From an uncultured Fidelibacterota bacterium (GTDB taxonomy: Bacteria; Fidelibacterota; Marinisomatia; Marinisomatales; Marinisomataceae): 64,000 bases of DNA. A program made the position numbers and the translations under genes. This document shows, piece after piece, positions 16,348 through 32,116 of the stretch. The stretch lies in the NCBI GenBank assembly GCA_902526795.1, contig CABZMF010000004.1, forward strand, positions 1 to 64,000. The letters run 5' to 3'. Positions within the stretch are counted from its first letter, which is position 1; each line of letters begins with the position of its first letter. The notes beneath the pieces were generated by a model. The model saw only the letters and a program-made list of their open reading frames with translations. It was not told where the DNA came from and searched no databases.

Positions 16348-16415
16348 ATATATCTAATTATACATAATCTTTATTATGCGTAAATAACTGATAAACAGCT
16401 ATGTTACAGCATATT

Positions 16416-18752
16416 TTAACTTAAATATAGTTTTTCTTGGACGCTAATGAATATTTGCCTTATATCGTCAATATCGCCTAGTTTTATCCTAGCATTTTTA
16501 ATTGTTTGATACTTTAAATTAATTAGTTTAGGAAGTTTCTCATTATCGAGTTCTTTAAAGCCATGATTTATATATTGATCTAATATAAAATGAGCAAATT
16601 CTTTCTTTTTATCTAAAAAGTTTAACTTTGACTTAGCATAATTTGCTCTTTCTTTTCTTGTTTTTGGTAGAGAGTTAAATGATATATAGGATAAAACATC
16701 ATATATATCACTATCAACAGCTTTTATTATTTCTCTTAATTCTTCAAGTTGTGATTCAGAATATCCGTTTTTATTAAGAACATCTAACAATTCACTTCGT
16801 GTATCAGGTTTTGACCATAAAACTCTTAAATCTTGCTCTGATTTAAATAATTTTGGTAAATCTTGAAAGAGTAATTTGACAAATTGTTCTGCAGTTATTG
16901 GTCGACCTTCACTATCCCAAAATGAGGTTTGTTTGGTCACTTGCAGTTCACGTACATTATCTTCACTTAGCTGAATTTGAAGCTTTACTTTTGGCTCTTC
17001 ATCTTCAGTAGTTGAAGGGTCTTTGTCAACAATAATAGGGTCATTAGGTGTTGCTGACGAAGTTGGCTCTGGTTCCATTGGTTCCCCGTCCCATTCAGGA
17101 TCTAGAAAATGCTTATAAGCACCTTCATAATCAAAAATAGTAAAGTAATTTTTATCATCAAATAATCGTGTTCCTCTTCCTATGATCTGCTTGAATTCTA
17201 TCATTGAATTTACTGGACGCATTAAGACAATATTCTTTAGTTCAGGACAGTCTACTCCCGTACTTAATTTTTGTGAGGTTGTTAAAATGGTTGGATATTT
17301 TTTTTCATTATCCTGAAAGTCTCTTAGATGTTGCTCTCCTAACGCTCCTTCATCTGCTGTGACACGATGACAAAAATCAGAGTGTGGATTTGGATTTAAT
17401 TGATTAACCAAATTGCGTACTAAAGCTGCATGATCTTGAGTTGCACAAAAAATAATAGTTTTATCAAGCGGATTCATTTCTTTTAAGAATTCTTTCACCC
17501 TAAATGCTTCACGTTCTTTGATGACAATATTGCGATTAAAATCTGATTCCGTATAAAGCTTACCTTCTTCTACTTCTCCTTCAACTACGGCATTTTCCCC
17601 AGTGTGAATATACTGGTCAATATTGCTATGAATTTGACGCACTTTAAACGGAGTTAAGTATCCATCATTAATACCATCTTTTAAGGAATAAGTATAGATA
17701 GGCTCCCCAAAATAAGCATACGTATCAATATTATCCGTACGCTTCGGAGTTGCAGTCAATCCTAATTGCACTGCTGAACTAAAGTATTGCATAATAGCAC
17801 GCCAATTACTTTCATCACTTGCCCCACCACGATGACACTCATCAATGATAATAAAATCAAAGAAATCTTCAGGATACTGGCCAAAAAATGGGGTGTCATT
17901 TTCTCCTGACATAAAGGTTTGAAAGATAGTAAAAAAGATACTACCATTGGTTGGTACTTTTCCTTGAGAACGAATTTCACCTGGACGAATGCGTACCAAG
18001 GCATCATCCTCAAAAGCAGAAAAGGAATTATACGCTTGATCTGCTAGCAAATTACGGTCAGCCAAAAATAAGATGCGAGGTAAACGCTTTCCGTCTTCCT
18101 GAAGATTCCAGCGCTTATTAAATAATTTCCAAGCAATTTGGAAAGCAATTGCAGTTTTCCCAGTCCCAGTAGCCAAGGTTAATAACATACGTTTTTTTCC
18201 ATTGGAAATAGCTTGCAAGGCACGATCTATTGCAATTTGTTGATAATATCTTGGTGACCAAGTACCATTCTTATTTTCAAATGGTACGGTACTAAATTCT
18301 TCTCGCCACTTAGTTGCTTGTGGATTTAACGCTTTTTCTGCACCAAAAGTATTATTCCATAATTCTTCAGGAGTGGGAAAACGATCTACATCTCCCTCTT
18401 TTCCAGTATCCATATCCATGGCATAGATTTTTTTTCCATTGGTTGCATAAGTAAAACGAATTTGAAGCTTGGTTGCATAATTTTTTGCTTGAGATACGCC
18501 TGCAGTGTAATCCAATGATGCTTTTTTCGCTTCTATGACTGCTAAGGGTGTATTTTTATACTCTAAGACATAGTCTGCATCCAGTTTTGTTGCACGCTGA
18601 TTATTATGGCCAACAAGCCTTCCAATAGATATAGGAACCTCTTCTCTAATACGTGCACCATCTTTGCTCCATCCAGCCTCAATTAACTTAGGTAAGATAA
18701 AATTAGTTCGAGTTTCTTGCTCGTTACGTACCCAGCTTTTATCTCTAGTCAT
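16416..18752 (-). CDS. hsdR: type I restriction endonuclease subunit R
   Basis: N-terminal nuclease (DYVLEYKNTPLAVIEAKK); ATGTGKT; DECHRGG; LTATPKRTDN; IGRGTRLF. Confidence 0.96.
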   Translation of the reverse strand: MTRDKSWVRNEQETRTNFILPKLIEAGWSKDGARIREEVPISIGRLVGHNNQRATKLDADYVLEYKNTPLAVIEAKKASLDYTAGVSQAKNYATKLQIRFTYATNGKKIYAMDMDTGKEGDVDRFPTPEELWNNTFGAEKALNPQATKWREEFSTVPFENKNGTWSPRYYQQIAIDRALQAISNGKKRMLLTLATGTGKTAIAFQIAWKLFNKRWNLQEDGKRLPRILFLADRNLLADQAYNSFSAFEDDALVRIRPGEIRSQGKVPTNGSIFFTIFQTFMSGENDTPFFGQYPEDFFDFIIIDECHRGGASDESNWRAIMQYFSSAVQLGLTATPKRTDNIDTYAYFGEPIYTYSLKDGINDGYLTPFKVRQIHSNIDQYIHTGENAVVEGEVEEGKLYTESDFNRNIVIKEREAFRVKEFLKEMNPLDKTIIFCATQDHAALVRNLVNQLNPNPHSDFCHRVTADEGALGEQHLRDFQDNEKKYPTILTTSQKLSTGVDCPELKNIVLMRPVNSMIEFKQIIGRGTRLFDDKNYFTIFDYEGAYKHFLDPEWDGEPMEPEPTSSATPNDPIIVDKDPSTTEDEEPKVKLQIQLSEDNVRELQVTKQTSFWDSEGRPITAEQFVKLLFQDLPKLFKSEQDLRVLWSKPDTRSELLDVLNKNGYSESQLEELREIIKAVDSDIYDVLSYISFNSLPKTRKERANYAKSKLNFLDKKKEFAHFILDQYINHGFKELDNEKLPKLINLKYQTIKNARIKLGDIDDIRQIFISVQEKLYLS

Positions 18753-19897
18753 AATTCTCCATTGAAGGCTTTTTCTAGAATGGATTGTTTAAGTTTATCT
18801 AGGGCATCTAGTTCTTGTTGGTAGTTATACTGAAGTTTTTTAGTATCAGATTTAATCTTAGCTGAATTGATTGCAATCTCATTTTGTTTTTCAATGGATA
18901 ATGGAAATCTAATTGAAAAATTATTTTGCAGTTTTAATCTTGAGAGCTCTGTTTGACCACTTGAACCTTGACCACTTTTTTGAATCTGTTTTTCTAAATT
19001 TATGATTGCAAATCCAAAATATTTTAGTACAAAAAATTTAGGTTTAGGTCTTAATACTGTCACATGAGTATCAATCGTAGCTCTTTCTTTTGGTAGATTA
19101 ATTATTTGTGCTACTCTTCCTAGTGTTCCAACTCCAGTTGAGTTTACTAAAACATCTCCCTCAATAATAATTCTTTCAATATTAACTGGTTTTGCATCAT
19201 TATTGTGTTTTCTGGATAATGAGAAGTCAACTTTATGATTTCTTATGCATTTTTGGTTTATAACAGTTAAGCCATCATCACCGTCGATATATTTTGGTGC
19301 AATTCCTCTTTTTATCATAGTACAAACTTCGCCCAAATTCTTTATTGTCCAGTCATCACCTTCTTGACTTAACATTTCATTCAATTTACTCTGAAATAAA
19401 TCCTCCGCATTCTGAATATTCTGCTCCACATTTTGAATCGCTTTTTCAACTCGTTCCATGCAGGTATCAAGTTTTTTTACAATACGTTTTTGCTCATCAA
19501 GAGAATCAACAAATTTAAATTTCATTTTTCTAAAATTCTTAACGTCTAGATTTTTTTGAGCAGTTCCTCTACCAAGATTATAAATATCTTTTGATCTATG
19601 AAGTAGTTGATATCCAAGAAAGTCATTTAATAGATTATACTCTTTTTTTGATGACAATGAGAGACCACTATCATTGAGAAAAAACTTTCCTGAAACAAAT
19701 CTGGTACAATTTTCGGACATTCCAAATCTTGAAACAATAAATACACTCTCACGATTGAATTTATCAATATAAAATGTTTTTCCTCCTCCCCCATAAACTG
19801 GGTACTCGCTACCTGCGTCCCTCTTTCGAGTAACCCTCGTACCATATTCTATATCACAAAGAGAATCAAGCGCAACTGATCTTAATCTATGTTTCAT
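18749..19897 (-). CDS. hsdS: type I RM specificity subunit S, two TRDs
   Basis: Two target-recognition domains separated by helical conserved regions (EQKRIVKKLD; LDKLKQSILEKAFNGEL); 4-nt overlaps with hsdR and hsdM. Confidence 0.94.
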   Translation of the reverse strand: MKHRLRSVALDSLCDIEYGTRVTRKRDAGSEYPVYGGGGKTFYIDKFNRESVFIVSRFGMSENCTRFVSGKFFLNDSGLSLSSKKEYNLLNDFLGYQLLHRSKDIYNLGRGTAQKNLDVKNFRKMKFKFVDSLDEQKRIVKKLDTCMERVEKAIQNVEQNIQNAEDLFQSKLNEMLSQEGDDWTIKNLGEVCTMIKRGIAPKYIDGDDGLTVINQKCIRNHKVDFSLSRKHNNDAKPVNIERIIIEGDVLVNSTGVGTLGRVAQIINLPKERATIDTHVTVLRPKPKFFVLKYFGFAIINLEKQIQKSGQGSSGQTELSRLKLQNNFSIRFPLSIEKQNEIAINSAKIKSDTKKLQYNYQQELDALDKLKQSILEKAFNGEL

Positions 19898-21345
19898 AAA
19901 ATCTTCTCAATCTCTTTTAAAATTGATTGATTTTCCTTATCTAAAGATCTCATTTCTTCTAAAAGCTCATTTGGACTTCTCAGTGGTGCTTCTTCGGGAA
20001 GATTTGGATTTGAAACCCCTAAATCACAGGTTTCTGTATTAACGGTATCGATGGAAAGATTCCAGGAACGTTCGGTTTCAGGTTTTGACTCTTGTTGAGA
20101 TAAAAATTCTTGAAAGTCTTTACTATTTAACGGATTGGTTTTTCCAAGACTTCTGCCTGGATCTAACTGATAATACCAGATTGATTTGGTTGGTGTTCCT
20201 TTTTTAAAGAAAAGAACTACTGTTTTCACACCAGTGCCAGGAAAGGTTCCTTTAGGCATATCTAGTACCATTTCTAAGTTACAGGTTTCAAGCAGGTGTT
20301 TACGTAAGGAAACTGATGCATTATCCGTATTAGATAAGAAGGTGTTTTTAATGACGATTCCTGCACGTCCATTCTGTTTTAAAATTTTGATAAAATGCTG
20401 TAAAAATAAAAACGCTGTTTCACTGGTTTTAATATCAAAGTTTTGTTGAATTTCAGGGCGTTCTTTTCCCCCAAACGGAGGATTAGCTAAAATAATATCA
20501 AATCGATCCTTTTCCTGAAAATCACGAATGTTTTCATTTAATGTATTGGTATGTAATAGGTTTGGAGCTTCAATCCCATGAAGAATCATATTCATGACCC
20601 CAATTATATAAGCTAGGTTCTTTTTTTCTTTTCCATAAAAAGTACTATCCTGCAAGATACTCATTTCTTGGGTATTGGATATTTTTGGTTTTAAATATTT
20701 ATATGATTCACAAAGAAAGCCTGCTGAACCAACTGCACCATCATAAATGGTTTCACCAATAGAAGGCTTAACAGTATCAATAATAGCCTTAATTAATGGA
20801 CGAGTGGTATAAAATTGTCCTCCATTTCTTCCCGCATTACCCATATTAGCAATTTTAGATTCATAGAGCGTGCTTAATTCATCTTTTTCCTCCAATGAGT
20901 TAAAACTTAATGCGTCTGCAGCTTCTAAAATTTCACGCAGGTTATATCCACTATTAATCTTGTTTTTAATTTCAGAAAATATTTCTCCTATCTTGTATTG
21001 AATGGTTCTAGGATTATCAGTCTCTTCCTTGAATTTTGCTAAATATGGAAAAAGCTCGTTATCAACAAAATTAATGAGATCTTCTCCCGTACGAGCATTA
21101 TTAAAATCAATGCTCCCATCTTCTTTTTTTGGAACAGCCCAAGAGGACCAACAATAAGGCTCCTCCATTAAAAAATTATATGATTTACCTTCTAAAGCAG
21201 CAGTGTCAGCTTTTTCATTTTCTAAATTGTCTAAATAACGTAAAAATAAGACCCAAGAGGTTTGTTCTGTATAATCTAATTCGCTATCAGCTCCCGCATC
21301 TCTATACAAGACATTATCAATGTTTTTGAAAGTGTTTACAAACAT
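19894..21345 (-). CDS. hsdM: type I RM methyltransferase subunit M
   Basis: LDYTEQTSWVLFLRYLDNLE; NAGRNGGQFYTTRPLIKAI; NPPFGG. Start uncertain: in-frame ATG at 21384 is separated by one TAG codon. Confidence 0.95.
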   Translation of the reverse strand: MFVNTFKNIDNVLYRDAGADSELDYTEQTSWVLFLRYLDNLENEKADTAALEGKSYNFLMEEPYCWSSWAVPKKEDGSIDFNNARTGEDLINFVDNELFPYLAKFKEETDNPRTIQYKIGEIFSEIKNKINSGYNLREILEAADALSFNSLEEKDELSTLYESKIANMGNAGRNGGQFYTTRPLIKAIIDTVKPSIGETIYDGAVGSAGFLCESYKYLKPKISNTQEMSILQDSTFYGKEKKNLAYIIGVMNMILHGIEAPNLLHTNTLNENIRDFQEKDRFDIILANPPFGGKERPEIQQNFDIKTSETAFLFLQHFIKILKQNGRAGIVIKNTFLSNTDNASVSLRKHLLETCNLEMVLDMPKGTFPGTGVKTVVLFFKKGTPTKSIWYYQLDPGRSLGKTNPLNSKDFQEFLSQQESKPETERSWNLSIDTVNTETCDLGVSNPNLPEEAPLRSPNELLEEMRSLDKENQSILKEIEKIL

Positions 21346-21376
21346 GCGCTAAATTTCTTTTAGTTTAAAATTGACT

Positions 21377-24300
21377 TTACTCATCTAAAAATTTATTAAT
21401 TTGTTCTGTCAAATCTGTTCCAAGAAAATACTCTTCTACTAGTTTCCACTTTTCTTTGGAAGAGAACTTAGATGCGAAGAAATATGTCATCAAATTAATT
21501 GAGGATTCAAATCTGCTATAAACATCTGATGCAATTTCATTAGTATAGAAATCGTCAAGGGCTGTTAGCCTCAAACGATTTGGATCATTTATTCTTATAA
21601 ATATTTTAGGATCCGTTCCACCTTTCGCTTCAAAAGTTGCAAGGTCAAAAAATTCGAGCATTTGTGCAATTTGAATAAATATTTTATCTTTTGGAGAAGA
21701 AATATTGATGTATTTGGAAACGCTACTTTCGTATTGTTCAGTATTACCCATCAAGAGGTTGAACCAAGTAGAAAAAGTTTTTTTTGTTTTATAAATATTT
21801 TTATTACACCTAAAAACCTGAGTATCATTTTGTCCAAATATACCAATCTTTCTATCATCATAATTATTTTTTGTTTCTAAAAATGCATTATTTAATACTT
21901 TACCACCAGAAGTCCATTGATAAGATGTCTTTGGACGAACTTTAAAAATGGTCAAAATTTCTTCAATGCCCATATAAAAATTTTTATTTCTACCTGGCAA
22001 TGCTTTTGAGACCTTATTTCTAAACTCTTTTCTTGTAAAGTAAGATCCCTGAAAAGATATAAAAACTGAAAGTAAGACGTCCCAAACCTCTTCAAACTCA
22101 TCAATTATATCATCTCTTAATAAATCATTATTAAAGTTAATTTCTAGTCTTTGAATTGGTATTGGTTGATTGTTATTATCAAAATCTCTACCGACAAATA
22201 ATTCTTTTTGATAAAAATTTCTTTTCATAGATGCAAAGTTAATTTTTCTAAATTCGTTTATCTCTTCCCACATTTTATCAAGTTTAATAAGATAAATTGC
22301 GTTTGAAGATCCAGGAGTGGTAATTGTGGTCTTTCTTCCAAATCTATCAATACTGGTTGTAGTATTTTCTGGCTTAGACTTTTCTAATAAATGAATGTAT
22401 TTAGAATATTTCTTGTTAAAAATTTTTTCTATGTTTTGTGGTACTTCAGCGTAAACTGTTCCAAATAATCTTTTTGGCCTTGCTAAGACAACTGGAAATC
22501 CTCTCTTATTAACAAAATCCTTTTCGATCATCATCAGACAACTTTGAATTTTATTTTCTAGAACACCATTTTGATTACTTTGATCTCCAAAAATGTGAGA
22601 AAAATCATTTGTGCTGGCAAGCATATTTGGTTTTTTTTCGTTTAAGTCATAAAGCTTTAATATTTTGCCTAAAATCCATTTAATTTGATACTGTTTTATT
22701 GATGAAAGACCAAATAGCACTTTACTATACTGTAAATCATTTTCGTTAAAGAAAGTAACAGCTTTACCTGATATATTTTTATCTCTAGCTGCTCTACCAA
22801 TCTCTTGAATATAGTCAGCTAAACCACCAGAAGGAGCATGATGATATACTTGCTGTATATCGCTTATATCGACACCCATTCCAAATGCTTTTGACGCTAA
22901 AACAACCGAAATTTTATTATTCTTAAAATCATCTTGAACTTCTTTTTTAAAATTTTTATTTGCTATTCTTGAATGAAATGGTCTCGATTTAGTACCATAA
23001 TCAATATTTTCAAGTAAAGTCATTGTATCATTTATATGTGTTGTAAAAGGAAAATAGGCTATCGCCTTGGTGTTTGAATCTATAAGACTTTTGATATGAT
23101 CTACAGTCTTAATCTGCTTTTCATCCTTATAGCTTCCTTTAGGATTAAAATGATGATGTTCAAATTCTATATCATCTCTTTTTGCTATACCAATATATTT
23201 TCCATTTAAACCAGGATCCATATTGAGACTTGAAATTGTCTCAAATGCTATGTCATCATTTCCCCCATAAACGGCAGTTGCTGTTAATGCTATTATAGGA
23301 AAATCTATAGAATTACCATCCTGATCAACATAATATTTTTTAAGCTTGTTTAAATGCGTGCCTAAATACCAATAATCAACCCTAAAACCTCTTCCCCAAG
23401 TTGATACAAGGTGGGCTTCATCAATAGCCATTAGTCCAATTTTTCTTTCACCAATAAAAAAATCAATACTATAAGACAAAAGAAGTTCTGGTGACATGTA
23501 AACAATGTCATAAGTTCCATTTTTTATATCTTCAATACGATCTTCTCGCTCAATTGGAGAAAGGTCAGAGTTTAAAAAAGTTGCATTATCTACATTTCTT
23601 AAGTTTTTAAGATTTTCAACCTGGTCGTACATTAATGACTTTAAAGGGGAAATTATAATTGTTATAAAACCTTTTTTTCCTAGATAAATCGCAGGAAGTT
23701 GAAAGAAAAGCGACTTTCCCGCTCCTGTTGGTGCAGTAACAAAAATATCATTAAATTTTTCATTGTTAAGAGCCTTTTCAGACTGCTGAAGAATATCCTC
23801 ACAAATTATATCTTGCTTTATTTTAATTGTATTATTTGAACCTGTGTCCGGGTTACTATAAAAAATCACATCTCTAAATTCAGAACTATTCCAATGTTTT
23901 TTAAGAATTTCGGATAATTCCTCTCTAGGCTCAATTATATCTTTATCTTGAGATTCGGTATAGAAATTAATTTTTATATCAATTTCATTAAAAATCTGAA
24001 CTATTCTATGTAATTGAATTTTATGGTGCTCATGAAAATTACTAGTGATTTGATAATTTAGTTGTTCAGGAGATTCAAAATTATAAATTGAAAATAAAAT
24101 TTCGTTATATAGTTCATTATTTGACATTGAAATTTTGTTGTAGTTTTTATCCGATTCAATAAAGTCGAAAACCGAATTATCAAAAATATAATTATAAAAT
24201 TCTATATTTTTGTAATCTTCAACATTTGAAAAAATAAGTGATTTATAGTTTACAAAGTTTATTTTTGTTGACTCATTTTTGGAAAAACCAAAAATAGATT

Positions 24301-24751
24301 CAAAATTATCGCTTGCAAAATCCATGGTTCTTATTTCAGATGATATTTCTTTTTCGAAATCTGGAAAAATCTCATTGGTTGGATTTATTATTGAAGTCGG
24401 AAAAAAATCATTATTTATAAATATTACCTCACATTCTAAATCGTTAAGTTTAATATCTGCTACAAGCACTTCTTCAAAGGAGCAAAAATTTAATCCAACA
24501 ATATCTGATAAAAAACTTCTAGCAATGTTTTTCCTGGTTTTTTTATTATTTAATTGAGCAAGATCTAATTCCCCCTCCTTGCAAAAGTCATTAAAGTTAT
24601 TTATTGCATTTATGTGTGAGGATAAGTGGTTATAAAATGTAAACGAAAAACCTTTAAAAATAAACAAAACATCACTTTCAAAATCTGAATCTGAAATTAT
24701 CTTATCTAAGAATTTTTGTTGTATTTTTTCAAGTAGTATATTTTTTACCAT
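21377..24751 (-). CDS. large RecQ-like DEAH helicase with extended N- and C-terminal regions
   Basis: APTGAGKSLFFQLPAIYL; MAIDEAHLVSTWGRGFR; ALTATA; YIQEIGRAARD. Confidence 0.9.
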   Translation of the reverse strand: MVKNILLEKIQQKFLDKIISDSDFESDVLFIFKGFSFTFYNHLSSHINAINNFNDFCKEGELDLAQLNNKKTRKNIARSFLSDIVGLNFCSFEEVLVADIKLNDLECEVIFINNDFFPTSIINPTNEIFPDFEKEISSEIRTMDFASDNFESIFGFSKNESTKINFVNYKSLIFSNVEDYKNIEFYNYIFDNSVFDFIESDKNYNKISMSNNELYNEILFSIYNFESPEQLNYQITSNFHEHHKIQLHRIVQIFNEIDIKINFYTESQDKDIIEPREELSEILKKHWNSSEFRDVIFYSNPDTGSNNTIKIKQDIICEDILQQSEKALNNEKFNDIFVTAPTGAGKSLFFQLPAIYLGKKGFITIIISPLKSLMYDQVENLKNLRNVDNATFLNSDLSPIEREDRIEDIKNGTYDIVYMSPELLLSYSIDFFIGERKIGLMAIDEAHLVSTWGRGFRVDYWYLGTHLNKLKKYYVDQDGNSIDFPIIALTATAVYGGNDDIAFETISSLNMDPGLNGKYIGIAKRDDIEFEHHHFNPKGSYKDEKQIKTVDHIKSLIDSNTKAIAYFPFTTHINDTMTLLENIDYGTKSRPFHSRIANKNFKKEVQDDFKNNKISVVLASKAFGMGVDISDIQQVYHHAPSGGLADYIQEIGRAARDKNISGKAVTFFNENDLQYSKVLFGLSSIKQYQIKWILGKILKLYDLNEKKPNMLASTNDFSHIFGDQSNQNGVLENKIQSCLMMIEKDFVNKRGFPVVLARPKRLFGTVYAEVPQNIEKIFNKKYSKYIHLLEKSKPENTTTSIDRFGRKTTITTPGSSNAIYLIKLDKMWEEINEFRKINFASMKRNFYQKELFVGRDFDNNNQPIPIQRLEINFNNDLLRDDIIDEFEEVWDVLLSVFISFQGSYFTRKEFRNKVSKALPGRNKNFYMGIEEILTIFKVRPKTSYQWTSGGKVLNNAFLETKNNYDDRKIGIFGQNDTQVFRCNKNIYKTKKTFSTWFNLLMGNTEQYESSVSKYINISSPKDKIFIQIAQMLEFFDLATFEAKGGTDPKIFIRINDPNRLRLTALDDFYTNEIASDVYSRFESSINLMTYFFASKFSSKEKWKLVEEYFLGTDLTEQINKFLDE

Positions 24752-24782
24752 TTGATATTAATTAATTTAAAAAAAATCACTT

Positions 24783-24977
24783 TTAAAATTCGTCATTTTT
24801 GTATTTATTTACACCAGATATCTCATCTGCTATATCACCAAATAAAACCCATGAAAAAAAGAAACACAGCCAAATAGCTATAAAACCAAACCAAAAGCCT
24901 TCTACCTGCATTAAATCAGGCCAGAAAAAGAATATTCCACCTAATAGCAATATAAATAGTGTGTTGAAGCAGCCCAT
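24783..24977 (-). CDS. 64-aa two-TM protein in the helicase operon
   Basis: MGCFNTLFILLLGGIFFFWPDLMQVEGFWFGFIAIWLCFFFSWVLFGD...; start overlaps the upstream stop (TAATG). Confidence 0.65.
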   Translation of the reverse strand: MGCFNTLFILLLGGIFFFWPDLMQVEGFWFGFIAIWLCFFFSWVLFGDIADEISGVNKYKNDEF

Positions 24978-27900
24978 TAAAGAATTCGCTGGCCTTTAAA
25001 TAATTCAACCTTTTCATTGTAGTTTTCTTTCCATTCAATAATCTGACTTACACAGCTTTGAAGGTTATCTCTTATTTGATTATTCCAAAACCTTTTGACA
25101 TCCCAACCTTGCTCAATCATTTTCAAATTTCTTATTCTATCTTTCGTAATTAGCTCACCTTTTTCATCGCTATGAAATGAATGACCGTCACATTCAATAT
25201 TAAGTTTTCTATCATTTTTTTGATCGAATACAGCTAAATCCAGCTTATATTGATCCACCTGAAATTGAGGAACAGCATAAATTTCATTTTTAGCAAGCTC
25301 TTCGTAGAGTAAAACCTCCCATTCTGTGTAATTAACATTCAACTCTCTAACATAGTTATGAGGGTATTTTTTTGTCCTAAATGAAGGTATTTTTTCTTTT
25401 TTGACTACTCTTTCACCAAGATTATTAACATACTTGGTTAGGTTTGACAATTCTTCATGGGCAAAATTCATACAATCTTCTTTATTTCCAACAATCCATA
25501 ATGCAGCACGAGCTCTTGTTATAGCAACATTAAAGAGGTTTGGTTTAAAAAAATTCATTACGTTTGCATCAACATTTTTTGTAACTACTGTTGAAAAGAA
25601 CATTATATCCCTCTCATCTCCTTGAAATAAATGAACCGTATTAACACTTCCATTTCTTTCATCAATAAACCAATTATATAGATTTTCATTACTATTTATA
25701 TCTTTTAAAATTTGATTTGCTTGAGCCCTATAAGGAGTTACAATACCTATTGAACCTTCATAATTATTATCTTTTAAATTATTAAGCTCTGATAATATAG
25801 CTTTAGATTCCTCAATATTTATTAAAGAACGATTATTTGAAGGCCTTTTAGATTGTCCTTTAATATTAATCCACCTTACAACGCTTTCATTTTCAACCAA
25901 CTTCAAGTTACTATAACTTGTTGCAACTCTAAGACTTCCTCCATAAAAATAATTATTTGAAAAGTTAATTATATCCTTGTGGCTTCTAAAATGATCTAAA
26001 AGATGGGTTTTTTTGCCTTGATTACACTTACTATCTGCAATCTTGAAAAGTGAATTTTGTGAATAAGACCAAATACTTTCATTTTCTAATAAATCAAAAC
26101 TTTCGAGTAGATTTAAATCTTCTTTAGGTGATATACCAGATATATGTTTTAGTTGCTGTTCGTCTCCAATTATAACAGCTCTTTTACTTCTAAAAAGTAG
26201 AGGTAAGACTGAAGCAATATCATTTTGACTAGCTTCATCTATGACTAAAAGATCAAATTGATTGGCTTGAAATGGTATTTTACTTTTTGCTGATAAAGAA
26301 GTAACAGACCAGCAAGGTGCTATTTTCATAACTTTATTTAAATGTTTATTAAATTGAGCTGCTAACCTTCTGTCGTTTATTTGTTGTCCATCTGAAATGT
26401 TACTGTCTTCTAAAAGCCCTAATATAGTCAAAAATTCCTGAATTTCTTTTCTTATTTCCTTATTGAATGTTGAACTTCTTACTTTTGTAAAAAACTCCCA
26501 TATATCTTTAGATGTATAAATTTTCTGTTCTTTTAAATTCATAATTTTTTTTGTTAAGTCAAAACTATCTTCATTTTTGTCAAGGAAATTGAGGAGATCT
26601 AAATAAGTAACAAGGTCAATATAAATATCAATATCATTATATTTTTTTAAAATTTTTTGTTTTGTAAGTAAAAGATTTTCTTGATTTAATTTTATATTAA
26701 TTTTTTTGTCAGAAACACTATTGAAAATTTCCTGAAAATTTTTGACGTGCTTTTTAATATTTTCAATTTCTTTTTTTTCTAAAAAATGAAATGAAAGATT
26801 TTTATAATCAAAATCTTTCCAGAAATCAATATTTTTATGTAATGATTTTATTAAATCATAATTTTTTTCATGATTTTTATAAAACTTGTATTTTCTAATC
26901 GGAATAATAGAATTTGATTTATTAAAGTTATTTAGTTTGGCGAGAATTTGAATAAAAGCCTCTTCATCAAAAGCAATTTCTTTAAAAAATCTTTTAAAAA
27001 ATCCATGTTCTTTTTTGGGTAGGTTTTCATTTAAAAATTTAAGAGCTTTTTGAGTATGATATTTTCCACTAGAAATAAATTTCTTTCTTCTTTTTGGATA
27101 TTCAATAGAAATTTCTTCATAATCTTTAACAATTTTATTTTTTAAAGCTTTTAATTTTTTAAGGTTTGTTTTAAAGTTTAAATCACTATTAATGCTTTGA
27201 ATTTTTTTATCAATTTCTTTATTAGAGTTATTATAATCTTTTAAAATTTGTTCATACTTTTCATTAATTTTCAAAACTTTATTTCTCAATGACGTATCAA
27301 GTTCTTCAATATTTTTTATTTCATCATCAATATTTTTTAGCTTTTTCATGCTTCTTTGAAGTTTTCTTTTTACTGAATCATTTGGAGCATTATTTATTAC
27401 GTTTTCACAATAGCTCTTTAATTTTGAGTACCTTTTTTGTTTCGAAAGATGAAGAAGTACTGGAGTTTGGCTTTCTTTGTTAGTCCTATCAATAACGACA
27501 TCAACAGCCTGGTTGTTTTTACTACTAAATAATACAGTAGTGTTATTATAAATTGAATTAATTAATAATGAAGATACTACTTGGCTTTTACCAGTGCCAG
27601 GTGGTCCGGAAATAACACTTAGATTGGATGTAAGCGCATTCTTAACTGCTGAAAGTTGCTCATCATTTAAATTAACAGGCTGAATTGTATTAAAACTATT
27701 TACCATTCTTGATTTATTTAAATTTTCAGTATTATATATCCAATCATATAAAGCTGTACCTTTAATTTGATCGGTAGACATTTTTGATAAGCTTTGAAGC
27801 TCAGATTCTAACCCTCTAGTAAACTTACTTTGCTCCATGCCAGTATAAATTGCACAATTTATAATCTTATCTTCATAATCTATCTCACTTAACTTTAAAT

Positions 27901-28666
27901 CACTTTTGTAAATATCAAAATCCTCTTCCCAAGGCCAGTCATATCTTTCGGATATAATATTTTGCAACATCTCATTTAATATTTCAACATTATCTGAATT
28001 TGTATGTAATTCAATCATAGTGCTTATATCATTCATTTGCTCCAAAATGGATGCATTATTTGAAGATTTAATGATATGTTCAAAAAAATCTGCATTTAAC
28101 CTTATATCCGTCAACAAATTGCTTTCATTATCAATTGAAATTATAAATAGTGGTCTTAATAGATAGTAATAATCGCCTTTTTTAGATTTAATTTTATTCA
28201 TGTAAATAGGATAACCTATACATTCTTGTTTTGGGCCACCTCTTTGATTATAAGCTCTTTGAGAATTGGAAATTGAACTTTTTAATCTAGAATATTCTTC
28301 ATTATCCAAATTATCTAAAAAATTAAAATTTTCGTCCTCAGTATTAAAACTGGAAAGTTGAGTATATTGTAAATTATAATTACTTCTAGCAAAAACAGAA
28401 AGTTTAAGTTGTTCTCTGGATAAACAATTAATAAAATATTTTGTTATTTTGCTTAACTGAGGATCTACATTTACTTGATTGTCAGATGAAGAAATATTTT
28501 TCTTGTATTTCCATTTGTAAGAATTATCCCTTTCAAGAACATCTTTTACTTCTCTTCTATAAAGGATACTGTTAACTGTGCTGGTATCAACGTTTAATTG
28601 ATAAGCTATATCTTTGGCTTTTATAGGTCCTTGTTTTTTAACGATATCTTTTATTTGCTCAATCAT
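24977..28666 (-). CDS. N-terminal HTH + SF1 (COG1112/AAA_11-AAA_12-like) helicase + C-terminal Vsr/DUF559-like nuclease
   Basis: HTH-like MIEQIKDIVKKQGPIKAKDIAYQLNVDTSTVNSILYRREV; SGPPGTGKSQV; LLVIDEASQND; FQGDERDIMFFSTV; NVAITRARAALWIVGN; nuclease-like KLDLAVFD...LNIECDGHSFH...QGWDVKRFW. Confidence 0.88.
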   Translation of the reverse strand: MIEQIKDIVKKQGPIKAKDIAYQLNVDTSTVNSILYRREVKDVLERDNSYKWKYKKNISSSDNQVNVDPQLSKITKYFINCLSREQLKLSVFARSNYNLQYTQLSSFNTEDENFNFLDNLDNEEYSRLKSSISNSQRAYNQRGGPKQECIGYPIYMNKIKSKKGDYYYLLRPLFIISIDNESNLLTDIRLNADFFEHIIKSSNNASILEQMNDISTMIELHTNSDNVEILNEMLQNIISERYDWPWEEDFDIYKSDLKLSEIDYEDKIINCAIYTGMEQSKFTRGLESELQSLSKMSTDQIKGTALYDWIYNTENLNKSRMVNSFNTIQPVNLNDEQLSAVKNALTSNLSVISGPPGTGKSQVVSSLLINSIYNNTTVLFSSKNNQAVDVVIDRTNKESQTPVLLHLSKQKRYSKLKSYCENVINNAPNDSVKRKLQRSMKKLKNIDDEIKNIEELDTSLRNKVLKINEKYEQILKDYNNSNKEIDKKIQSINSDLNFKTNLKKLKALKNKIVKDYEEISIEYPKRRKKFISSGKYHTQKALKFLNENLPKKEHGFFKRFFKEIAFDEEAFIQILAKLNNFNKSNSIIPIRKYKFYKNHEKNYDLIKSLHKNIDFWKDFDYKNLSFHFLEKKEIENIKKHVKNFQEIFNSVSDKKINIKLNQENLLLTKQKILKKYNDIDIYIDLVTYLDLLNFLDKNEDSFDLTKKIMNLKEQKIYTSKDIWEFFTKVRSSTFNKEIRKEIQEFLTILGLLEDSNISDGQQINDRRLAAQFNKHLNKVMKIAPCWSVTSLSAKSKIPFQANQFDLLVIDEASQNDIASVLPLLFRSKRAVIIGDEQQLKHISGISPKEDLNLLESFDLLENESIWSYSQNSLFKIADSKCNQGKKTHLLDHFRSHKDIINFSNNYFYGGSLRVATSYSNLKLVENESVVRWINIKGQSKRPSNNRSLINIEESKAILSELNNLKDNNYEGSIGIVTPYRAQANQILKDINSNENLYNWFIDERNGSVNTVHLFQGDERDIMFFSTVVTKNVDANVMNFFKPNLFNVAITRARAALWIVGNKEDCMNFAHEELSNLTKYVNNLGERVVKKEKIPSFRTKKYPHNYVRELNVNYTEWEVLLYEELAKNEIYAVPQFQVDQYKLDLAVFDQKNDRKLNIECDGHSFHSDEKGELITKDRIRNLKMIEQGWDVKRFWNNQIRDNLQSCVSQIIEWKENYNEKVELFKGQRIL

Positions 28667-28705
28667 AATACAATTTTTTAAAAATATGGTTAAAAAAAGA
28701 ATATA

Positions 28706-28978
28706 TCACGCAATATTTCTAATTGTGTATCCGATAAAGTGTCTCATATCAATTTGTACCAATACAAAATCTGAATCATAAAGAGAAAAACAATGATTAC
28801 ATCCAATATGGTATGTTTCGTGCATTTCTCCATCTTTTACCCTTTCATTATCAAATGAAAAAAAGTATAAACTATACATCTTCATTGGAAGATTACAGAT
28901 CATGCATGTGTTATTGTGATAAATTTGTTCTATTTTTTTGTATTCTTTTGAATTTGGATTAAATAAATGTAGTTTCAT
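28706..28978 (-). CDS. small Cys-rich, probable zinc-binding protein
   Basis: CMICNLP ... HIGCNHC pattern; intact ORF. Confidence 0.5.
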   Translation of the reverse strand: MKLHLFNPNSKEYKKIEQIYHNNTCMICNLPMKMYSLYFFSFDNERVKDGEMHETYHIGCNHCFSLYDSDFVLVQIDMRHFIGYTIRNIA

Positions 28979-29121
28979 ATAGGCATTCCTTTCCCTGTTT
29001 TATTTTTGATTAAAGGTTTACGGAGAATTGGTGATAAAAATCAGAAATATCTCACTAATAAATAAATATTTTTAAAAATTAAAATCAAGTTTTTTTAATA
29101 TATTTCCTTTTTCTTAAGCTT

Positions 29122-29364
29122 TTAATCAACTTTATAGCAAGTAATCAACATATTATTTTGAACTACAGCATGATATCGTTTTCCAAATGGTAATTTTACT
29201 ATTTTGGAGGAAGATTTGAATGTTTTAAATGCTTTGCTTTCATAGTCGTGCATCATATCTTGCATTTTATTTAATACATCATAACGACAATAAGTACATT
29301 CAGATTTTAACACTCGTTCAAAAAATCGTTCCATAAAATGTTCGGTCACAATTATACTACTCAT
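29122..29364 (-). CDS. small hypothetical protein (start revised to MSSIIVTEHFMERFFERV)
   Basis: ORF extends to 29415, but the ATG at 29364 gives the 8-nt overlap ATGAGTAG with the upstream stop; more parsimonious than a 59-nt overlap. Confidence 0.5.
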   Translation of the reverse strand: MSSIIVTEHFMERFFERVLKSECTYCRYDVLNKMQDMMHDYESKAFKTFKSSSKIVKLPFGKRYHAVVQNNMLITCYKVD

Positions 29365-30001
29365 TACTACCCACCTCTCTTTCAAGTATATTTTGTAAAT
29401 GGGTTGATCGTACATTCCAATACCAATGACGCATCAAACTATGTTGTTTTTCTTTTTGAAATTGTTTTCGCCAATCGATAAAATGTCTTTGCTTTTTCTT
29501 TTTACGAAAACAACTATTATGGTGATAGTCAAATCCTGCACTTCGTCGCATCATTGACATAGCACCAGTAAAACTAATATAAAAGTCCTGATCCTTATCT
29601 TGTGGTGTTAATATCAGCTTATTTGATAAATGACGACGCTTGCTTAGTCTAGTAGTACAGTTTGAGCAAAAATATCCTTCACAATTACAATGAATAAACC
29701 AGTAGCTTCCTTCATCGGGAAATTCTCTGCAAAATTTACTATTCACTTTACGTACCATAGAATTCATTTCATATTCCCAATCGCTTAATCGACCATAAAA
29801 GTCATGGCATTTATGACATTGATAAATCTCCTCAAAGCGTTTTAAGGGAATATCTTCTTTAAAGCGCTGTCCAAAAGGATAATAAACAGTAAAACGCTCC
29901 ATAGCATACGAGAAGTCTATGGTGATGAGTTTGTAAGATGGGTCGGGATAATCGTTGTACCACAACTTCTTACTTCCCAGCCCATAATTATATGTTTTCA
30001 T
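29357..30001 (-). CDS. Cys-rich protein, probable zinc fingers
   Basis: CHKCHDFYG, CNCEGYFCSNC; strong SD AAGGAGG before the ATG. Confidence 0.6.
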   Translation of the reverse strand: MKTYNYGLGSKKLWYNDYPDPSYKLITIDFSYAMERFTVYYPFGQRFKEDIPLKRFEEIYQCHKCHDFYGRLSDWEYEMNSMVRKVNSKFCREFPDEGSYWFIHCNCEGYFCSNCTTRLSKRRHLSNKLILTPQDKDQDFYISFTGAMSMMRRSAGFDYHHNSCFRKKKKQRHFIDWRKQFQKEKQHSLMRHWYWNVRSTHLQNILEREVGSNE

Positions 30002-30047
30002 GATGTACCTCCTTAATTCATATTAATTCAATACATCAGGTGTTAAA

Positions 30048-30165
30048 TGAAAAAGCCCTCATCAGAGGGCTTCAGATATTTTCAGCATTGCTGCTCATCT
30101 GTCACTTGACAAACCACCGTGGCCTATGCTCGGTTGGTGGGATTTTTCCCGTCCTGATGATAACA
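30048..30165 (-). ncRNA. candidate structured RNA / attenuator leader upstream of the 29357-30001 gene
   Basis: GC-rich island in AT-rich intergenic DNA with serial hairpins (GGGA-AAAA-TCCC; CCACC/GGTGG; TGTC-AAGT-GACA; CAGAT[..CAGC-ATT-GCTG..]ATCTG) ending in a terminator on the - strand. Confidence 0.5.
30049..30072 (-). terminator. rho-independent terminator (minus strand)
   Basis: AAGCCCTC-TGAT-GAGGGCTT followed by TTT on the - strand. Confidence 0.75.
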
Positions 30166-30201
30166 TAATTTAATATTATTTATCTTTTTTTCAAATAATA
30201 T

Positions 30202-30645
30202 TTAAGCATTTTTCCAATACTTAATAGATTTTTGACCAACAAGCTTCTCAATATTTGGAATGGATGTTATTTCTTTTTTTACTTTATCAGCCTCAATATC
30301 ACCTACAATGAGTCTAACCGATTTTATCATTCTAGTAATTCTTTTTAGATTATGGTTATTAACGTTTTTCCAATGATTATTTCTTTTTAAAAACGAAATA
30401 TACCAATAAGCTGATTGTAATATTGCCTCTCTAACATTCTTATCGCTTGTTAAGCTATCAATCTGTTGTTCTGATTCAATGAAATATTTATTTGATGACC
30501 AGAAACTCGGTTCTGCTAAAGGAAAAACTATTTGTATAAAATCATGATTTGCTTCAATCTCGTTATCTGAAAACTTATATATATCACTTAACATTCTTCC
30601 TTTATGATCACAGCTTTCATTCAATAAAAAAGATTTAAAATTCAT
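30202..30645 (-). CDS. opioid growth factor receptor (OGFr_N)-like conserved-region protein
   Basis: DHKGRMLSDIYKFSDNEIEANHDFIQIVFPLAEPS resembles the OGFr_N signature (H-D-[FY]-I-Q-x-[LV]-F-P-L). Confidence 0.65.
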   Translation of the reverse strand: MNFKSFLLNESCDHKGRMLSDIYKFSDNEIEANHDFIQIVFPLAEPSFWSSNKYFIESEQQIDSLTSDKNVREAILQSAYWYISFLKRNNHWKNVNNHNLKRITRMIKSVRLIVGDIEADKVKKEITSIPNIEKLVGQKSIKYWKNA

Positions 30646-30731
30646 TTTAAAATTTAATAAGGAACAATTAAGTATTTAATAGATATGTATATAAGAGAAA
30701 GAATTCTGAGGATAACTCAAAAGGAGCTTTA

Positions 30732-31120: not shown

Positions 31121-32116
31121 CTATAATAGCTTTTTAATTTGCGCAGCAGCTTCTAAAACACCTTGCTCAGCACTCCTTGGCTCCCATCCAAGGATATTCT
31201 TGGCATTATTTGAATGATAAATTCTTGTAATATCAATATCTGCTGTTAAATGCCTTACCTGTTTATCATAGATCGCATATAACTTAACAAGAAATGATGG
31301 AAGTTCAATTCTTGGTGCATTATATCCATTTTCTCTTAATAATTTGGCTAGTTCTGGAAACCAAATATGTCTGGTAGATGCTATAAATCGTTTTCCTACT
31401 GCCCTGTCATCTGTCATAGCTTGCACATGCAAGTCAGCAATACATTTAATATGAACAATATTAATACAAATATTAGCAGCAAATGGCAATGATCCATCAA
31501 TCATGCGCTTGACCACTAAATTCGATGTTCCAACATCATTAGATAAAGATTCTCCTACAACCAGTGAAGGATTAATAGCTACAACCTGCATATCGGTTTT
31601 GTCTTTATTCTTTTCCATAAAATCCCATAAGAACCTTTCAGCTTTGGTTTTACTAGTTTGGTATGGTGCTACATTCATGCTTAAATCAGTCCAATCAGTA
31701 TCATCATACTCATTTTTGTGATTAGAGCCACCTACAGCTGCAACAGAGGAAGTCATTACAAAACGTTTGATATTATTCTTTAAAGCAGCTTCAAGGCACC
31801 TTCTAATACCATCTACAGCGGGTTTTACCACTACATCATAGTTATTAGAGTGACTTGTGGGGATTGGTGAAGCAATATGTTGCACATAGTCGCACCCCGC
31901 AACAGCTTCATTCCATCCATCATCTTTTAATAAATCCAGCTCACAAAACTCAAGCATGCCTGCTGTGGATACCTCCTTTTCCACTGCATCAATGACTTCT
32001 TGTTTACGATCTAATGAACGTAAGGATGTTCTTACTTTATAGCCATCTTGTATGAGTTTGGAGATTAAATGAAGGGAAATGAATCCAGAACCGCCGCTAA
32101 CAAAAACTTTTTTCAC
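31121..32116 (-). CDS. NAD-dependent epimerase/dihydroflavonol-reductase-like extended SDR
   Basis: VFVSGGSGFISLHLISKLIQDGYKVR; YQTSKTKAE. Confidence 0.9.
   Translation of the reverse strand: MKKVFVSGGSGFISLHLISKLIQDGYKVRTSLRSLDRKQEVIDAVEKEVSTAGMLEFCELDLLKDDGWNEAVAGCDYVQHIASPIPTSHSNNYDVVVKPAVDGIRRCLEAALKNNIKRFVMTSSVAAVGGSNHKNEYDDTDWTDLSMNVAPYQTSKTKAERFLWDFMEKNKDKTDMQVVAINPSLVVGESLSNDVGTSNLVVKRMIDGSLPFAANICINIVHIKCIADLHVQAMTDDRAVGKRFIASTRHIWFPELAKLLRENGYNAPRIELPSFLVKLYAIYDKQVRHLTADIDITRIYHSNNAKNILGWEPRSAEQGVLEAAAQIKKLL

Follow-up and report, generated by a model that had tools for sequence, protein, structure and literature searches.

A mobile bacterial helicase-nuclease with a Z-alpha-related winged helix in a variable genomic site

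Results

Layout of the helicase-nuclease gene

The window, that is, the whole 64,000-nucleotide stretch of DNA analyzed here, contains an ORF on the minus strand (24977 to 28666) that starts with ATG and encodes 1,229 amino acids in a single intact frame without internal stop. A first-pass annotation had proposed an N-terminal HTH, a split SF1 helicase, and a C-terminal Vsr/DUF559-like nuclease for the encoded protein, and this three-part architecture was borne out by Pfam, by AF2 modeling, and by the alignment of relatives. From the N terminus, the gene reads as a Z-alpha-like winged helix (wHTH), an N domain, the split SF1 helicase, and a Vsr/MTES_1575 nuclease, all encoded on the minus strand. 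The Z-alpha-class winged helix occupies residues 1 to 56 (28499 to 28666) and is followed by an alpha/beta domain at residues 66 to 320 (27707 to 28471). The first helicase portion (residues 330 to 395; 27482 to 27679) comprises the Q motif, Walker A, and motif Ia. An insertion of Lys-rich, coiled-coil-like sequence lies between helicase motifs I and II (residues 396 to 779; 26330 to 27481) and separates it from the DEASQ motif and the second helicase half (residues 780 to 1066; 25469 to 26329), and the nuclease lies at residues 1102 to 1214 (25025 to 25363).

The helicase core is UPF1/DNA2/Sen1-like and matched the Pfam models AAA_11 (residues 332 to 495, 3.7e-22) and AAA_12 (residues 871 to 1062, 1.8e-33). 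All SF1 motifs are conserved across the relatives that we aligned. Walker A (GPPGTGKS, residues 354 to 361) and DEASQ (residues 810 to 814) lie 450 residues apart, in agreement with the proposed split by a long insertion. In nearly all orthologs this interval measures 335 to 350 residues, and the window copy is thus about 100 residues longer in its insertion. The C terminus matched MTES_1575 at residues 1119 to 1210 (E 2.7e-13, exceeding the curated cut-off) as well as DUF559 (2.8e-7), as expected for a Vsr-like PD-(D/E)XK nuclease. Within its core, all orthologs extending into this region share D1143, E1158, and R1192, and D1160 and H1165 are kept in nearly all (72 orthologs). A profile of the family nuclease also matched 3hrl, an endonuclease-like protein of solved structure, at 2.8e-9.

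Between the winged helix and the helicase, a region of about 270 amino acids (residues ∼66 to 335) was predicted as alpha/beta with a pLDDT of 85 and contains positions conserved in the family. It gave neither a sequence match nor a credible fold match in the PDB. The analysis thereby marks out a conserved domain (residues 66 to 320) without a solved relative.

The gene sits in a variable hotspot and stands alone

The helicase-nuclease gene lies upstream of genes for a RecQ-like helicase and for a type I restriction-modification (RM) system, hsdM-hsdS-hsdR, all on the minus strand. The RecQ-like gene begins 225 bp downstream of it, and hsdM follows 31 bp past the RecQ-like gene. A scan for promoters and terminators ahead of the RecQ-like gene returned nothing above chance. 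Comparison with congeners placed all of these genes, together with small ORFs, in a variable segment (16348 to 30731) bounded by leuS/15676-16347 on one side and, on the side of the epimerase and rmuC genes, by the gene at 31121 to 32116. The same site is empty in one congener (L119) and carries other cassettes in five: a DndB-like gene with an MrcB_N-nuclease gene (L120), C5 methylases (Dcm; L121 and L124), a D12 adenine methylase (Dam; L122), and an N4/N6 methylase (L123). The genus-wide site thus shows the pattern of a defense hotspot, and none of the same-genus genomes searched yielded the helicase-nuclease gene.

The first-pass annotation had linked the HTH to the adjoining RM system as a possible reader of HsdM-methylated DNA. 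Across about 90 related loci, however, only 2 had any RecQ hit and a handful had Hsd genes, and no partner cluster common to most of them was found. The RM cassettes that occupy this site in congeners, moreover, are different ones. These observations speak against the methylation link, although a reader function of some kind for the wHTH is plausible. We therefore rejected RecQ and HsdMSR as obligate partners and conclude that the helicase-nuclease is a stand-alone gene, not tied to the adjoining type I RM or RecQ genes. Some relatives lie beside GmrSD (L037), McrBC (L073), or type I RM (L046) genes, in a tally of neighbors made without a random-region control.

Other genes of the segment have features of their own. 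The RecQ-like SF2 helicase (21377 to 24751, 1,124 amino acids) matched the PADLOC model C3a193 ("poss. alt. Cas3") with 523 bits. Its relatives on Firmicutes plasmids adjoin type I RM genes (L016) and a sigma-70-like gene, the latter being fused in L017 to a DpnI_C (Dam-replacing HTH) domain. Just upstream of the helicase-nuclease gene, a Cys-rich ORF of 90 amino acids (28706 to 28978) recurs at 93% identity in a congener whose hotspot cassette is a different one (L123:6565-6837), and its movement is thus independent of the helicase-nuclease. An ORF of 147 amino acids at 30202 to 30645 matched OGFr_N, a family whose name comes from a eukaryotic receptor, above the cut-off (1.5e-5).

A mobile family in which the winged helix can be exchanged

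As a single query, the window protein found no relatives in the genome and viral collections. These were reached with an alignment built around a relative from a Rhizobium plasmid and then with viral orthologs. Searching the genome collection in this way yielded 133 relatives, and we retained 80 of them. The family, of about 75 relatives, spans many bacterial phyla and is represented in several archaea, and full-length orthologs occur on the prophage-like contigs L023 and L025. Its tree mixes phyla, for example grouping Flavobacteriales with Moranbacteria and Paenibacillus with Saccharicenans, and this mixing points to horizontal movement of the family. The exact place of the window copy in this tree is unsure because of its long branch.

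The wHTH is present in 54 aligned members, the window copy included. In five more relatives (L042, L050, L062, L099, and L102), the wHTH is encoded upstream but in a different frame, apparently because the gene is broken or was misassembled. No wHTH is present in archaeal, Gastranaerophilales, and some other relatives, so the enzyme can evidently do without it. In two Bacteroidales relatives (L094:8008-11352 and L095:9662-13009), a WYL domain replaces the N-terminal wHTH, exchanging the presumed sensor of the same helicase-nuclease. Searches of plasmids, phages, and viral sequences with the 62-residue wHTH revealed no further architectures.

A more distant wHTH-SF1-Vsr relative is encoded on Rhizobium plasmids (L002:11224-21520 and L003) in a set of five genes that also features coiled-coil proteins, DUF2357, and a PDC-M26A-like protein; the L003 gene is disrupted by an IS21 element. 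Given this distance, the other gene set, and the PDC-M26A-like partner, we rejected the five-gene locus as an instance of the same system.

The winged helix is related to Z-alpha domains

The AF2 model of residues 1 to 62 (mean pLDDT of 90) is a winged helix, as the annotated HTH implied, with helices at residues 2 to 12, 17 to 24, and 28 to 35 and a wing at residues 44 to 46 and 52 to 54. Its elements follow the a1-b1-a2-a3-b2-b3 order of Z-alpha. We built a profile from the wHTHs of 40 members and searched it against all PDB sequences. The best matches were CyHV-3 ORF112 (4.5e-9), PKZ (1.3e-8), and ADAR1 (4.9e-6), followed by poxvirus E3 (8.6e-5) and ZBP1 (1.8e-4). The top of the ranking was almost exclusively Z-alpha, with PscE (7.5e-4) as the single non-Z exception, and ordinary bacterial wHTHs first appeared at 0.016 to 0.02. 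In a Foldseek search with the AF2 model, ranks 1 to 8 were all Z-alpha/Z-beta domains (TM 0.74 to 0.78, 24 to 33% identity). One of these is the second Z domain of ZBP1, whose structure was determined bound to Z-DNA (3eyi; 32% identity, TM 0.76). The Foldseek E-values were weak (0.0045 at best), as they are for any 60-residue wHTH.

As a specificity control, we searched 244 genomes of the phylum with the wHTH profile and obtained matches in just 2 of them at 1e-4, so the profile does not pick up ordinary wHTHs. Likewise, the wHTH of an HxlR protein encoded in the window gave no Z-alpha match. Taken singly, the window wHTH reached Z-alpha at E 0.4 to 0.6 only and had no match to Pfam z-alpha, but 6 of its 10 PDB matches were Z-alpha domains. 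Across the 40 wHTHs, Pfam z-alpha matched 22 (best, 1.7e-5) and HTH_24 matched 28, and members also matched general HTH_24/MarR models. The N terminus had been annotated as HARE-like. That assignment gained no support: the window protein had no HARE-HTH match at E≤1, the family is absent from the 25 Pfam families listed (of 80) for the wHTH members, and the PDB profile search indicated Z-alpha instead.

Residues important for recognition of the Z-form are N173, Y177, P192, P193, and W195 (PMC11298590), which map to N32, Y36, S49, Y50, and W52 of the window copy. The segment holding the equivalents of ADAR1 N173, Y177, and W195 spans residues 32 to 52 (28511 to 28573, minus strand). Among the 54 wHTH members, W52 is invariant, N32 is kept in 46, Y36 in 38, and all three together in 35. 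A basic residue occupies position 28, the equivalent of K169, in 50 of the 54; the window copy has T there. The P192-P193 pair is absent, the window copy having S49-Y50 and the aligned family no PP; the second Z domain of ZBP1 likewise aligns without the pair. A relationship of this wHTH family to Z-alpha is therefore well supported, and its members are candidate binders of the Z-form.

Comparison with known defense systems and Z-alpha domains

The best PADLOC match of the protein was MkoC (219 bits; 172 bits for segment 780 to 1085 singly), and PDC-S37 and Hhe also matched across the helicase and nuclease. Like MkoC of type II Mokosh (PDLC03924), it is a single large protein with an SF1 RNA-helicase-like core, and the two can be aligned for the greater part of MkoC. 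The C terminus of MkoC is a PLD domain, whereas the window protein ends in the Vsr-like nuclease and has no PLD match in Pfam; its N-terminal part singly gave no match to MkoC. With Hhe (DUF4011-SF1-Vsr) and PADLOC PDC-S37 it shares the order of the second SF1 half followed by a Vsr-like nuclease, but it had no DUF4011 match at E≤1 and scored 127 bits against Hhe, for which the NCBIfam cut-off is 2,000. The lack of a PLD thus places the helicase-nuclease outside Mokosh, and the lack of DUF4011 places it outside Hhe. Giant proteins combining an SF-I helicase, a Vsr REase (MTES_1575), a wHTH, and HEPN have been described previously (Anantharaman 2013, PMC3710099). They share with the window protein the fusion of an MTES_1575 nuclease to an SF-I helicase and a wHTH, but the latter lacks HEPN and transglutaminase, and its wHTH is N terminal and of the Z-alpha class.

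The wHTH resembles the Z-alpha domains of ADAR1, ZBP1, PKZ, ORF112, and E3 in fold, in profile similarity, and in the N173/Y177/W195 equivalents. Unlike these eukaryotic and viral domains, whose Z binding it may share, it lacks P192-P193 and sits on a bacterial helicase-nuclease. The bacterial Z-alpha-like domains assayed by Romero 2024 are likewise bacterial wHTHs with a Z-alpha fold and did not bind the Z-form; they carry Ser and Asn in place of N173 and Y177, both of which this family keeps (PMC11298590).

All 40 wHTHs also matched the C-terminal ∼65 residues (positions 616 to 683) of the PADLOC model of ZorC, with a best value of 1.8e-12; L044 and L023 are among them, and the window copy matched at 0.0012. 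ZorC of type I Zorya is otherwise different, having an EH signature and no such helicase or nuclease and working with ZorABD. Judging from these profile matches, the C-terminal domain of ZorC appears to be homologous to the Z-alpha-like wHTH, a lead toward a wHTH module common to several defense systems. A search for ZorC within the phylum gave no matches, and its controls were silent as well.

Discussion

We propose that the gene probably encodes a helicase-nuclease of the Mokosh/Hhe type that works by itself, most likely against phages or plasmids, and in which a Z-alpha-class wHTH serves as a reader of nucleic-acid shape. The SF1 motor would load on nucleic acid that is foreign or aberrant, or move along it, and cutting would fall to the Vsr-like nuclease tethered to the motor. 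The wHTH, replaceable by WYL, would direct the motor and nuclease to their site of action by reading the shape of the nucleic acid and not a methylated RM site. That shape may be a left-handed or strongly underwound duplex arising from phage replication or transcription. It is the genomic context that points to defense, and two other roles for the protein fit it poorly. A UPF1/DNA2/Sen1-like core could belong to a housekeeping helicase-nuclease that repairs DNA or RNA, but the absence of the gene from the other congeners searched, the taxonomically scrambled tree, the orthologs on prophage-like contigs, and the placement in a variable hotspot make this most improbable. Scarcely better placed is a composite restriction system made of the helicase-nuclease, the RecQ-like helicase, and HsdMSR. 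Adjacency on one strand would suit it, and the RecQ-like family adjoins type I RM on an Enterococcus faecium plasmid too, but the rarity of RecQ and Hsd genes at related loci and the lack of a common partner cluster largely refute it.

A closer competitor concerns the wHTH itself, which could be an ordinary B-DNA-binding or autoregulatory domain with mere Z-alpha ancestry, the defense helicase-nuclease sensing ends or stalled forks through its helicase. We regard this explanation as quite possible, if short of probable. It accounts for the missing proline pair, for the larger number of members matched by HTH_24 than by z-alpha, and for the existence of relatives without a wHTH, and it agrees with the failure of the earlier assayed bacterial domains to bind the Z-form. 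Those domains, however, lacked N173 and Y177, and a ZBP1 domain solved with Z-DNA also does without the proline pair. The invariant W52, the near-invariant N32, the basic residue that most members have at the site equivalent to K169, and both PDB rankings favor Z-alpha over an ordinary wHTH. The further claim that these are true bacterial Z-alpha domains, with which a widespread anti-phage helicase-nuclease (perhaps also ZorC) senses invader nucleic acid that is in the Z-form or strongly underwound, is in our judgment rather unlikely on present evidence.

Z-alpha function is known from animals and eukaryotic viruses, almost always in an antiviral setting. The open-licence papers searched contained no report of such a wHTH as Z-alpha in a bacterial defense protein. 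As gauged from those papers, three things appear to be new, namely, that the reader is of Z-alpha identity and keeps the key residues, that the family is a distinct one, and that the gene lies in a hotspot. If these wHTHs do sense the Z-form, the sensing by animal ADAR1, ZBP1, and PKZ would have a prokaryotic counterpart or origin in antivirus defense. A large bacterial family that keeps N173, Y177, and W195 on a helicase-nuclease, in a restriction hotspot and with a domain in common with ZorC, provides a concrete object for testing left-handed nucleic-acid sensing in bacterial immunity.
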